Source: Bacteroidia bacterium
GTDB taxonomy: Bacteria > Bacteroidota > Bacteroidia > B-17B0 > Aurantibacillaceae
DNA: 64,000 nucleotides
Assembly: GCA_026414605.1 (NCBI GenBank)
Contig: JAOAIP010000018.1
Coordinates: forward strand, 1-64,000
Direction of reading: 5' to 3'
The notes beneath the pieces are model-generated. The model had not been told where the DNA came from. It was given only the letters and a program-made list of their open reading frames with translations, and ran no database searches. Below, one piece after another: positions 53,805-61,092 of the stretch (position 1 is its first letter; each line of letters opens with the position of its first letter). The translations under genes were made by a program, and so were the position numbers.

Positions 53805-53878
53805 TGAATAAAAATTTTGAGCCGCAAAGGTCGTAAAAAAAACTTGTTTAGAGAAATTTATTTTGGATGAGAAAAATT

Positions 53879-53910
53879 TTTGTCCGTATAAAATAAATTT
53901 CATACATTTG
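53879..53910 (+). promoter_or_regulatory. rpsF-rpsR-rplI promoter, full consensus
   Basis: TTTG (53879-53882), 20-bp spacer, TACATTTG (53903-53910). The match to the Bacteroidota consensus is exact. The rpsF ATG at 53932 is 21 bp further on, so the leader is too short for a large autoregulatory RNA structure. Confidence 0.75.
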
Positions 53911-53931
53911 CCCCCCTTAAAAAATTATTTT

Positions 53932-54336
53932 ATGGAAAAACGTTATGAAACGGTCTTCATTTTAACTCCCGTTTTGTCTGAAGAACAGGCAAAGGAGGCC
54001 GCAAAAGGATTTGTACAATTCCTTAAACAACAAAAAGCCAAAGTACTTCACGAAGAAGTATGGGGATTGAGAAAATTGGCTTACCCCATTCAAAAAAAAT
54101 CTACGGGCTTCTATTTCTTAATAGAATTTAGTTCAGATAGCCCAACTATCGTAAAAGATTTGGAAACTGCTTTCAAAAGAGATGAAAGAGTGTTGCGTTA
54201 TCTCACCGTATTGATGGACAAATACCATATTGAATACGCTGAGAAAAGAAAAGCCAAACTCAAATCTTCTTCTCCTGCAACGGCTTCAAAAAAGAAAAGA
54301 ACTACTAAAAAAGTAAAAGAAGAAGATGTTGAATAA
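53932..54336 (+). CDS. rpsF: 30S ribosomal protein bS6
   Basis: A 134-residue ribosomal protein of the small-subunit platform, partner of bS18. [20 protein letters not shown] opens the protein, and [19 protein letters not shown] and [11 protein letters not shown] are family signatures. A basic C-terminal tail ([15 protein letters not shown]) is present. The start at 53932 fits both family and promoter; a longer reading begins upstream of the promoter. It heads an rpsF-rpsR-rplI operon. Confidence 0.97.
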
Positions 54337-56543: not shown

Positions 56544-59270
56544 TTAACTTTTTCCATTTTTTTTGTAGTTGAGTTCAAAAAAGGATTTGTAGTCGTTGAG
56601 ATTTTTTTCTTTGATGAGTGTTTTATAGTTTTCATCAGAGATAATAAAAAATTCAAATTCATTTTTTGGAAAGTCATTGAGTATCTCTTCATCATTGACA
56701 AAGTTATTGAAGTATTGTTTGGCTTTTTCAGAATTACCAAAGGATTTCACTAATATAATTTGTTTGCCTTGTGTAAAGATATTGGAGGTAATAGAAAATT
56801 CATCATTGGAATAATAATTTTTGTTGAAAGCATCAATTTTACTTTTGACATTGCTTACTATTTTGGGTTCATCGGGCAATACAATGATGAAATAATGAAG
56901 AGCATTGGCATCTAAAGTGTATGGAGTAGATGCGGCTTTTTCTTCTTTTTGTGAAGTGGTATCTGTTTTTTGAGTTTTAAGTTTGTTGATTGCCAAAAGC
57001 AATTCATTGGCCCTGTCTTTGAGTTCAGATTTGGGATACAAGGCAATGTATTTTTTGAGGTTCATTTCTAAAGTATCCAGACCTTTGAGTTTTCCACCAC
57101 ATACGGCTTTGAAAAATTCTACCTTTTGTAGCAATTTATCGCTTAATCCTGATTGAATCATTTCTTGAGAAAGTTGATAACATTGATTAAAGTTTTGTGA
57201 TAAATAAGCATTGTAAAGGGTTTCGTATTTTTGTTCGGTTTCATTAAGTTGATTTTGTTTGTTGATAATATAATTTGGATTTTTGATTAGTTGTGCATAT
57301 TCACTATTGGGGTATTGATTTAAAATTTTTTCTTTGTATTCATTAGATTTTGTAGTATTTCCTACTTTTTGATAAAGTAGGTATAGTTGATAATACGTAG
57401 AAAGTTTGTATTTATTGTCGGGATATTTGCTGTTTAATTCTTCAAATGCGGCAATGGACTTTGGATAATTATTCAAATCTTCTTTGTAGGTCAATGCCAT
57501 TAAGTAATAGTATTCTGTGATTTTGCTGATGTAAGCATTGTAAGTAGAATCATTGGTGGGCAGTTTGCTTAAATAGTATTCACGAGTTGTTTTAGGGTCT
57601 ATGGGTTCGCTTTCTTTTTTAAGTGGGTCTTTGCTGTTAGTGTTATTGGCATTAGTGTTATTTTGGTTGGGATTTTTAGTGTTGGCACCGTTTTCATTAT
57701 CATTGGTATTAGAAGTATTTGTTTTGTTTTTAATGCTTCTTCGCCAATCGTCTTCAAGAGGACGAGGTCCCCATTTTTTGATAAAGTCCTGAATGCCATA
57801 ATTGACGGCTGTAGGATTGTAGAAATAAAATGACGATGTTTGAATGGCAAAGGGATTGTTATTGGGGTCGTTAGGATTAGAGGGACCAGGTGGAGTTGAT
57901 TTGGATTTTTCTTCTTGTTCTTTTTTCTTTTTTTCTTTTTCTGCAATGTATTGTTTGATTTGTCTGTCAATCAATCGGTCTATTTCATCTTTATTAAATT
58001 TTGAAAGTTTTATTAAACTGTCCAGTTCTTGAATGCCTTGAATGTAAGTGATTAAATTTTGTAATACTTCTTTACGAGCCACAATTTTATCGTACTGTTT
58101 GTGAGATTTGGGTAAAGTAGCAATAGCACTATCATAGTAGCGTCCTGAGGGTACATATTGTCCTTCATCAAAGAAAATATCACCAAGTTTTAAGTAAGCG
58201 TATGCTTTTTGTTTGGGGTTTGTACTACTGCTTCTTACAGAAAGTAGGTAATACTTTTTAGCATCCTCTATTTTATTTTGTTTTTCTTCAATTTGTCCAA
58301 GTGTGTAATAAATAACGTCAAGATATTCGTTGTTCTTGGTTTCTGATGTCATTGCGAGTAATTCTTTTTTTCTCTTTTGTAATTCTGCAGGATTAGAATC
58401 ATCAAAGAGTAAGGCGTTTTTCATTTTCGCATAAAACAGCATTTCATAATCGGGTTTGATTTTCATTACTAATTTGTAATACTCTTTGGCTTTTGTGAAG
58501 TTGCCTTCTTGTTCGCTTAATTGAGCGGCTACAAATGCATAGCGGGCTTGTTGTAATTTTTTTTCACGATTAAAAAAATATTTTTGATGAATGGCTTTAT
58601 CAAGATTTTTGAGGGCTTCTTTGTAGTTTCCTCTACGAATGTAATAATCAGCGTTTAGTCCATAGATTTCTTTCTGAATAGAATGTGGGATTTTTTTATC
58701 ATTATTGAGATTGTCCAAAATAATTTCACTTTCAGATACTGCACCTATTTCGTTGTAAGAACGCACCAGCCAATACATTGCTGTATATTTATCTTTGGAT
58801 TTTGCGTATGTTCTTGTTACATAATCTAATGCTTCAATACCGCTGAAAAATTCTCTTTTGTAATAGCGTGCAATACCTATGTTAATCCAACAATTGTCAA
58901 TCCATTTATTAGCACCGTGTTTGGTGGTCTCTGCGCTGCTGCCTTTTTCTTTGATGGCGTGTCGTTGAATCATCAAAGATGCTTTTTTAATGGATCTGTC
59001 AAATTCGGGATAAGTTTTTTTGGCTTCTTCATCCGATTCGGGTACAACAAATACAGGCAATAGATCATCAAAATTATCTTTATGTGCAGTGCGAATTTTA
59101 TACTCCCCTTCTTTAATGCTTTCAGTAGAGTTGAATAAGCCATTAAAACGAGTATTCATATTGTGCCAAAATCTGTGTACAAGCGTATTTTTTTTAGTGC
59201 TACAAGACACTAATAGCAATAATTGGGCGAACAAAAAAAAGTATATACTATGTTTTTTCAAGTTTTGCAT
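56544..59270 (-). CDS. porW: PorW/SprE-type TPR lipoprotein of type IX secretion and gliding
   Basis: A 908-residue lipoprotein. The signal peptide ends in LLLLVSCS with lipidated C23. It is followed by VHRFWHNMNTRFNGLFNSTE, close to the HNxTARYNGYFNA segment I associate with SprE/PorW. Tetratricopeptide repeats occupy about 130-420 and 560-740. A low-complexity Asn/Lys/Glu-rich stretch lies near 490-560, and a globular C-terminal region from about 790. PorW links the T9SS core to other outer-membrane parts. It should serve the exported protein at 28.8-31.8 kb. Confidence 0.85.
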   Translation of the reverse strand: MQNLKKHSIYFFLFAQLLLLVSCSTKKNTLVHRFWHNMNTRFNGLFNSTESIKEGEYKIRTAHKDNFDDLLPVFVVPESDEEAKKTYPEFDRSIKKASLMIQRHAIKEKGSSAETTKHGANKWIDNCWINIGIARYYKREFFSGIEALDYVTRTYAKSKDKYTAMYWLVRSYNEIGAVSESEIILDNLNNDKKIPHSIQKEIYGLNADYYIRRGNYKEALKNLDKAIHQKYFFNREKKLQQARYAFVAAQLSEQEGNFTKAKEYYKLVMKIKPDYEMLFYAKMKNALLFDDSNPAELQKRKKELLAMTSETKNNEYLDVIYYTLGQIEEKQNKIEDAKKYYLLSVRSSSTNPKQKAYAYLKLGDIFFDEGQYVPSGRYYDSAIATLPKSHKQYDKIVARKEVLQNLITYIQGIQELDSLIKLSKFNKDEIDRLIDRQIKQYIAEKEKKKKEQEEKSKSTPPGPSNPNDPNNNPFAIQTSSFYFYNPTAVNYGIQDFIKKWGPRPLEDDWRRSIKNKTNTSNTNDNENGANTKNPNQNNTNANNTNSKDPLKKESEPIDPKTTREYYLSKLPTNDSTYNAYISKITEYYYLMALTYKEDLNNYPKSIAAFEELNSKYPDNKYKLSTYYQLYLLYQKVGNTTKSNEYKEKILNQYPNSEYAQLIKNPNYIINKQNQLNETEQKYETLYNAYLSQNFNQCYQLSQEMIQSGLSDKLLQKVEFFKAVCGGKLKGLDTLEMNLKKYIALYPKSELKDRANELLLAINKLKTQKTDTTSQKEEKAASTPYTLDANALHYFIIVLPDEPKIVSNVKSKIDAFNKNYYSNDEFSITSNIFTQGKQIILVKSFGNSEKAKQYFNNFVNDEEILNDFPKNEFEFFIISDENYKTLIKEKNLNDYKSFFELNYKKNGKS

Positions 59271-59583: not shown

Positions 59584-60366
59584 TTATTGTTTAAGAATTT
59601 GTTGTGTATGATTGTCTACATCTACTTTTGTAATAACATCGGAAATAATACCATTTTCATCTATAACAAAGGTAGTGCGAATAATCCCTTCTGATACTCT
59701 GCCCATAAATTGTTTTTTGCCCCACACATCAAATGCACGAATGATATTCTTTTCAGTATCTGATATTAAAGGGAATGGTAAATTATACTTGGCAATAAAT
59801 TTTTTATGGCTTTCTGGATTATCAGCACTGACACCAAATACAGAATATCCTGCATCTAAAAATTTTTGATAATTATCTCGGATATTGCACGCTTCTCTTG
59901 TGCAGCCAGGAGTATCATCTTTTGGATAAAAATAAAGCACATATTTTCTGCCTAATAAATCATTAGATGTAATTTTATTTCCATCTTGGTCAATCCCTTC
60001 AAAATAAGGAGCAGGCATACCGGGTTTTAATGAAGTGATGTGAGGAGTAAATTTTCCTTGAGTTTGTTGAGAGGCAGTGTTCTTCATTTGATTAGATGAC
60101 ATTGTTTTATTAGATGCAGATTTAGTTGTAGTTTTATTAGTTGATTGAGATGTTGATTTTTTAGCAACGACTTTTTTAGGAGTAGATTTTTTTGTTGCTT
60201 TTTTTGCCGCTTTTTTTGTAACTTTCTTTGTTGCAGATTTTGGACTTGATTTCTTACTTGCTTTTTTTACTGATTTTTTAGCGATTGCTTTTTTTGCAGT
60301 TTTTTTGCTTGCTGCTTTTTTGCTTGCTTTTTTAGTTGTCTTATTAGTTGTTTTTTTCTTTGCCAT
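59584..60366 (-). CDS. BCP-type peroxiredoxin with histone-H1-like lysine-rich N-terminal tail
   Basis: A 260-residue fusion. Residues 1-88 are a low-complexity Lys/Ala/Ser/Thr tail (KKASKKAASKKTAKKAIAKK is typical); 31 of the first 70 residues are lysine, as in bacterial histone H1-like proteins. Residues about 105-260 form a thioredoxin-dependent peroxiredoxin of the BCP/PrxQ group with C155 and C160 in PKDDTPGCTREACNIRD. It is about 105 residues longer than ordinary BCP. The promoter element is just ahead of the first ATG, so the tail is probably translated. The tail may bind DNA. Confidence 0.9.
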   Translation of the reverse strand: MAKKKTTNKTTKKASKKAASKKTAKKAIAKKSVKKASKKSSPKSATKKVTKKAAKKATKKSTPKKVVAKKSTSQSTNKTTTKSASNKTMSSNQMKNTASQQTQGKFTPHITSLKPGMPAPYFEGIDQDGNKITSNDLLGRKYVLYFYPKDDTPGCTREACNIRDNYQKFLDAGYSVFGVSADNPESHKKFIAKYNLPFPLISDTEKNIIRAFDVWGKKQFMGRVSEGIIRTTFVIDENGIISDVITKVDVDNHTQQILKQ

Positions 60367-60387: not shown

Positions 60388-60395
60388 CAAATATA
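60388..60395 (-). promoter_or_regulatory. -7 promoter element for the peroxiredoxin gene
   Basis: TATATTTG on the minus strand, exact TAnnTTTG, 21 bp before the first ATG. It supports translation from that ATG, including the basic tail. Confidence 0.6.
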
Positions 60396-60438: not shown

Positions 60439-61092
60439 TTACGGCGATAAACGGTATTTTGTCCAACTTCCATCTTTTTGTTTTTCATAAGCAATTCTAT
60501 CGTGGAGGCGACTTGGACGACCTTGCCAAAATTCATAATAGTGTGCTTCTACATCCCATCCTCCCCAATGTTCAGGGTAAGGCACAGGATATGTTGGAAA
60601 CTTTTGTGCATATTCTTCAAACTTTTTAAGCAATTCTGAACGAGACGCTATCTTTTGACTTTGCACCGAAGCATAGGCAGATATTTGGTTTTCATAAGGT
60701 CTACTTTCAAAATAGGATTTGCTTTTTTCTATGGGAGATTTTTTGGCTATTCCTTCAATTCTTATTTGTCTTTGTAAAGGTATCCAATAAAATAAAAGTG
60801 CTACTTTGTTGTTGTCTTGAATATCTCTTGATTTTTTAGATAGATAATTGCAATAAAATGTAAATGTATCTTTTTCATAATCTCTTAAATACACAATACG
60901 AGAAGAGGGTTGAAGATTTTGATTTACGGTTGACACTACCATTGCATTATATTCGGGAACTTGTTTTTGAATGGCTTCTTTCATCCATTCTACAAAGGCA
61001 TCAAAGGGATTTTCAGGTAAATGCAATTCATTTAATTCTTCATTATTAAAATCATTACGAATGTTTTGAATGATTTTCTTTATGTCCTCCAT
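60439..61092 (-). CDS. pdxH: Pyridoxamine 5'-phosphate oxidase
   Basis: A 217-residue FMN enzyme that oxidises pyridoxine or pyridoxamine phosphate to PLP. NAMVVSTVNQNLQPSSRIVY, KDTFTFYCNYLSKKSRDIQD, LLFYWIPLQRQIRIEG, WGGWDVEAHYYEFWQG and RLHDRIAYEKQKDGSWTKYR, then LSP, are all PdxH motifs, including the C-terminal R-L-x-P. Full length. It stands alone with respect to other B6 genes; PLP could serve the DegT enzyme among others. Confidence 0.98.
   Translation of the reverse strand: MEDIKKIIQNIRNDFNNEELNELHLPENPFDAFVEWMKEAIQKQVPEYNAMVVSTVNQNLQPSSRIVYLRDYEKDTFTFYCNYLSKKSRDIQDNNKVALLFYWIPLQRQIRIEGIAKKSPIEKSKSYFESRPYENQISAYASVQSQKIASRSELLKKFEEYAQKFPTYPVPYPEHWGGWDVEAHYYEFWQGRPSRLHDRIAYEKQKDGSWTKYRLSP

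Follow-up and report, generated by a model that had tools for sequence, protein, structure and literature searches.

BCP/PrxQ peroxiredoxins (PF00578; NF006960; PDB 5enu, 3drn, and 5iiz) share the whole catalytic domain and the spacing of the two cysteines with the protein described here. The known BCPs begin just before this domain, whereas our protein carries a long N-terminal tail, which also sets it apart from 76 named relatives. The tail resembles chlamydial HC2 and the bacterial histone-H1-like proteins (AlgP), which are likewise Lys/Ala-rich, repeat-like, basic, and variable in length; the size of Hc2 differs through lysine-rich pentamers (PMC2848022). In contrast to HC2, the module described below is joined to enzymes, and it scores under the HC2 cut-off.

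Antioxidant proteins held close to DNA are known from other systems. The yeast nuclear thiol peroxidase Dot5/nTpx (PDB 2a4v), a related peroxiredoxin by both sequence and Foldseek matches, is kept near DNA by its nuclear location, unlike the tail-based tether proposed here. To our knowledge, Dot5/nTpx has neither an H1-like repeat tail nor a link to a glycosylase. Gross chromosomal rearrangements are more frequent in tsa1 dot5 double mutants (PMC2688748). The nuclear peroxiredoxin PfnPrx of Plasmodium falciparum is reported to be associated with chromatin throughout the genome (Richard et al. 2011, cited in PMC3337327), and this eukaryotic protein is to that extent similar to the one proposed here. 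In Dps (DNA-binding protein from starved cells), flexible tails keep an antioxidant protein on DNA, which is a functional parallel; however, Dps is a ferritin-like ferroxidase cage and not a thiol peroxidase. Peroxide damages DNA mainly via DNA-bound iron, and a chromosome-bound peroxidase would therefore answer a spatial problem that is usually ascribed in bacteria to Dps or bulk scavengers. Endonuclease III (Nth, TIGR01083), a DNA-only enzyme, removes oxidised pyrimidines; the ordinary enzyme has no lysine-rich linker or peroxiredoxin.

The open-licence literature that we searched contained no bacterial peroxiredoxin with a histone-like tail, bound to DNA, or fused to endonuclease III, although absence from this literature is weak evidence. 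A sequence-only reading of the locus had likewise known of no characterised fusion. The parts of the protein are known; the architecture that combines them is uncharacterised and is conserved across the family.

A BCP/PrxQ-type peroxiredoxin with a lysine-rich tail

We analysed the window, a stretch of 64,000 nucleotides at the start of contig JAOAIP010000018.1 (assembly GCA_026414605.1), in which the gene is a single intact ORF that starts with ATG and has its stop codon within its span (Table 1). The AhpC-TSA profile (PF00578) matched residues 116–242 with an E-value of 7e-40 (136.3 bits against a cut-off of 26), and the NCBIfam model of thioredoxin-dependent thiol peroxidase (NF006960) reached 151.3 bits, above its cut-off of 140. 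C155 and C160, the sole cysteines of the protein, lie in the motif TPGCTREAC (DTPGCTREAC). The peroxidatic cysteine is placed in PxxxTxxC and the resolving cysteine follows five positions on, as in BCP/PrxQ, and both residues were invariant in an alignment of 30 family proteins. The pLDDT of the domain was mostly above 88 (AlphaFold2, 30 family proteins). The top PDB matches in Foldseek were BCP/PrxQ enzymes, as were the best matches by sequence, and the yeast nuclear thiol peroxidase appeared at rank 18 in Foldseek. Profile scores, motif, and fold matches thus confirm the intact BCP-type peroxiredoxin with C155 and C160 that had been read from the sequence. By these comparisons the catalytic part belongs with the ordinary BCP/PrxQ enzymes and is predicted to be a thioredoxin-dependent peroxidase.

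Table 1. Features of the peroxiredoxin locus in the window.
Feature	Position	Strand	Basis
Whole ORF, lysine-rich tail and BCP/PrxQ-type peroxiredoxin, 260 aa	59584..60366	(-)	ORF, profile matches
Lysine-rich disordered N-terminal tail, residues 1–104, net charge about +35	60055..60366	(-)	composition, pLDDT, family conservation in kind
Peroxiredoxin domain with flanks, residues 105–260, C155 peroxidatic, C160 resolving	59587..60054	(-)	profiles, pLDDT, Foldseek
-7 promoter box of Bacteroidota, TATATTTG (form TAnnTTTG), 29 bases upstream of the tail ATG	60388..60395	(-)	
pdxH, pyridoxamine 5'-phosphate oxidase, upstream neighbour, same strand, context only	60439..61092	(-)	
TPR protein, downstream neighbour, same strand, context only	56544..59270	(-)	

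The tail contains 31 lysines in residues 1–70, the number first reported, and 34 in residues 1–88. Residues 1–108 comprise 36 Lys, 18 Thr, 16 Ser, and 15 Ala, with no Asp, Glu, or Arg. The charge of the tail is about +35.5 and its pI is 11.5, whereas the remainder of the protein has a pI of 6.3 and a charge of -1. The tail had been described as about 88 residues long; the basic stretch is indeed present, but it reaches about residue 104, with residues 89–104 poorer in lysine. Its pLDDT was about 50–58 without secondary structure (AlphaFold2, 30 family proteins), and the structure model contained no folded DNA-binding domain in the tail. In being rich in Lys, Ala, Ser, and Thr, disordered, strongly basic, and variable in length, the tail agrees with the histone-H1-like nucleoid class. 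The term histone-H1-like is therefore apt for composition but not for family: the window protein matched neither the histone H1-like HC2 profile (PF07382) nor any histone family, and two relatives, one of them a standalone module, reached 20.6 and 19.9 bits against HC2, below the gathering score of 40.

Basic disordered segments can associate with acidic lipids, and the tail could serve solubility, self-association, or membrane binding without any relation to nucleic acid. However, it lacks a hydrophobic or amphipathic pattern and the gene context gives no pointer to membranes, and we regard such a device as very improbable.

Evidence for translation of the tail

A box of the form TAnnTTTG precedes the ATG of the tail by 29, 28, and 29 bases in the window genome and two congeners, which are all three members of the genus having the gene. 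The congener boxes are TATCTTTG and TACATTTG at -28/-29, and the flanks around the box have otherwise diverged among the three. The -7 element claimed upstream of the first ATG is thus confirmed and is conserved in the genus; the motif itself occurs about once per kilobase per strand in the window.

Ordinary BCPs begin just before the domain and the window protein has methionines at positions 89 and 95, from which an ordinary short BCP could be made in the cell in place of the tailed protein. Such a short form near residue 89 had been considered from the outset. However, both congeners lack any internal methionine, as do 34 of the 40 in-frame family tails, most of which start with MAKK, and the -7 box is positioned for the ATG of the tail in all three congeners. 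The box placement and the unconserved internal methionines also indicate that the tail is not an annotation artefact, and a misplaced start was rejected as unlikely. The frame of the tail is moreover open beyond chance: the other two frames of the same strand contain 2 and 13 stops over the tail, and only 0.3% of Markov sequences with its dinucleotide make-up remained open for 108 codons. A chance open frame was therefore rejected, with P about 0.003 for the window tail alone in addition to the family-wide conservation. We find the short form hardly credible. The comparisons support the tail as a genuine conserved piece of coding sequence with good signs of translation.

Three arrangements of the module in the family

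In our sample, the order of the window genome is represented by a single family with 10 genera. The peroxiredoxin was present in 74 of 87 family genomes, and every such locus was fetched and classified. A lysine-rich module was found in 71 of these 74; the other three (G004, G005, and G050) had no module or a merely weakly basic start. The module is in frame on the peroxiredoxin only in 40 of the 71, with a length of 23–193 residues, and the genus of the window belongs to this group. In 19 genomes, 16 of which belong to genus g10, the peroxiredoxin shares a single frame with endonuclease III and a lysine-rich linker between the two enzymes; these triple fusions are L161, L122, L160, and 16 further loci in g10 and in G010, G012, and G032. 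In the other 12, the module has an ORF of its own in a different frame, which stops a few bases short of the peroxiredoxin start or overlaps it. Genomes that had seemed tail-less were rejected as a counter-example, because the module was found there in another frame, and the apparent counter-example thereby became support.

Two of the separate modules, those of L121 and L153 (G035:C43 and G041:C63), end with GACGAGGAGGAATAG, and the peroxiredoxin frame at these loci has no ATG or GTG ahead of the domain; the junction GGAGGAATAGTYATCGC is common to both. Translation there may rely on a -1 frameshift or a non-AUG start.

The nth gene is fused (19) or lies directly upstream on the same strand (41) in 60 of the 71 genomes with the module. 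It is neither fused nor directly upstream in the genus of the window, genus g9, and two others; in the window genome it lies at G000:C8:33127-33753, unlinked to the peroxiredoxin gene, and the window protein, which has no endonuclease III in frame, is not a triple fusion.

This neighbourhood bears on the question of what the tail would bind. It is established chemistry that polylysine binds any polyanion without selectivity. The strongest rival to a DNA tether is accordingly a general polyanion anchor, with RNA/ribosomes or polyphosphate granules as the main partner, where the enzyme would protect or be stored. The histone-H1-like AlgP of Pseudomonas aeruginosa sits on polyphosphate granules (PMC9239181), and the lack of a folded DNA-binding domain in the tail is consistent with such an anchor. 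However, such an anchor does not predict that 60 of 71 genomes would link the module to an enzyme acting on DNA only, and we consider it rather unlikely. A module repeatedly tied to a base excision repair enzyme fits the DNA-bound peroxidase first suggested from the sequence better than it fits chance or mis-annotation, and the recurrence of this link favours a DNA-linked role on sequence grounds.

Triple fusions with endonuclease III

The triple fusion L161 (454 aa) scored 247.5 bits with the nth model TIGR01083 (cut-off 211.7) and 177.1 bits with NF006960 (cut-off 140). In 18 aligned triples, no variation was seen in the helix-hairpin-helix of Nth (LPGVGRKTANV), in the Asp of VDTHV, in the four FeS cysteines, or in the peroxidase cysteines. 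No confident structure was modelled for the linker. Both enzymes in the triple proteins look functional. In the G010 triple, nth is split over two frames, possibly by a frameshift or an assembly error.

In all 19 triples a methionine is kept where the lysine-rich module begins; internal initiation there may yield a short product, and hence perhaps two products. The module could be a separate small histone-like gene that lies by chance between nth and bcp and was joined to one or the other by stop-codon loss, with little effect on the peroxidase. It stays an ORF of its own in 12 genomes, and internal initiation in the triples could still yield the module with the peroxiredoxin. On the other hand, it is purely a peroxiredoxin tail in 40 genomes, including the genus of the window, where the gene is preceded by a promoter of its own and nth is not in the vicinity. 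Moreover, the window genome yielded no second lysine-rich ORF as strong as this one. Its best second place is weak (E 5e-4), a 45-codon frame with a stop, and a genome-wide habit of lysine-rich tails was rejected on the same result. A separate gene of this kind seems improbable to us.

Evolution of the module

We compared difference rates at the first, second, and third codon positions in the triples. The values were 0.15/0.06/0.51 for Nth, 0.16/0.12/0.48 for the peroxiredoxin, and 0.52/0.52/0.56 for the module. The equal difference at the three positions indicates that the module sequence is little constrained or poorly alignable, whereas the domains on either side are conserved. The net charge was nevertheless positive in every copy, with a median of +38.5 in tails and +11 in triples. 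Charge that is kept where sequence is not is the pattern to be expected of a charge-based disordered tether.

On the tree of peroxiredoxin domains, the arrangements require about 13 changes in all; the module has therefore moved between states repeatedly. The best tree places the genus of the window apart from the other module-bearing peroxiredoxins, but a single clade was not rejected (AU p 0.13). The tree is compatible with both a common origin and convergence of the tail of this genus and those of the others.

Relatives outside the family

We fetched 80 named relatives, of which 76 were recognised by motif and examined for a tail; none of these 76 outside the family had a comparable tail. 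In a class sample of 396 genomes, no tail was seen outside the family among the longest-framed matches listed. The tail as a common feature of Bacteroidota BCPs was rejected on the outside relatives examined, and among these the lysine-rich module appears specific to the family. Short basic starts of about 10–25 residues occur in Ca. Chrysopegis kryptomonas and one uncultured bacterium. In the former, the BCP (L099:3920-4474) opens with a brief lysine-rich stretch (MSAKKVKASRTKKTSAKSKDK) that may be a small tail of independent origin.

The nth gene also adjoins a tail-less bcp in L039, L049, and G121. Because the adjacency occurs without the tail, the neighbourhood probably arose before the tail, and nth adjacency may therefore carry less functional meaning.

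Proposed role of the tailed peroxidase

We lean towards a BCP/PrxQ peroxidase, dependent on thioredoxin, that would be held on the chromosome by a disordered polylysine tail, histone-H1-like in its action. The sequence, the translation signals, the distribution, and the fusions are shown by the comparisons above, and from them we infer DNA binding, location, and protection. The approximately 35 positive charges would bind DNA without sequence preference, and the peroxidase borne on the tail would destroy H2O2 and organic peroxides beside DNA, ahead of the Fenton chemistry that oxidises bases. Where Nth is part of this polypeptide or is encoded in its gene cluster, leftover oxidised pyrimidines could be excised on the spot, and prevention and repair would form one unit. 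In the genus of the window, the polypeptide would hold the preventive half alone, since the gene is under a separate promoter and nth is located elsewhere. Extending this to the whole family, as a nucleoid-bound device for preventing and repairing damage in which a lysine tether concentrates a peroxidase, and often endonuclease III too, on DNA, is more tentative, and we put its chance somewhat short of even.

The three arrangements point to an unusual link of oxidant removal with base excision repair. The tail, the separate module, and the triple fusion are natural variants for asking whether a DNA-tethered scavenger lowers mutation.

In some members of genus g3 (L026, L027, L143, L015, L120, and L139), an acidic stretch rich in Ser and Asn, often ...DEEE, closes the module and gives a bipartite protein, basic and then acidic. 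An acidic C-terminal stretch of this kind would weaken DNA binding in these relatives. Elsewhere in the window, a ribosomal protein S6-like ORF (53863-54336, + strand) has a short basic-acidic tail of 15 residues at its end.
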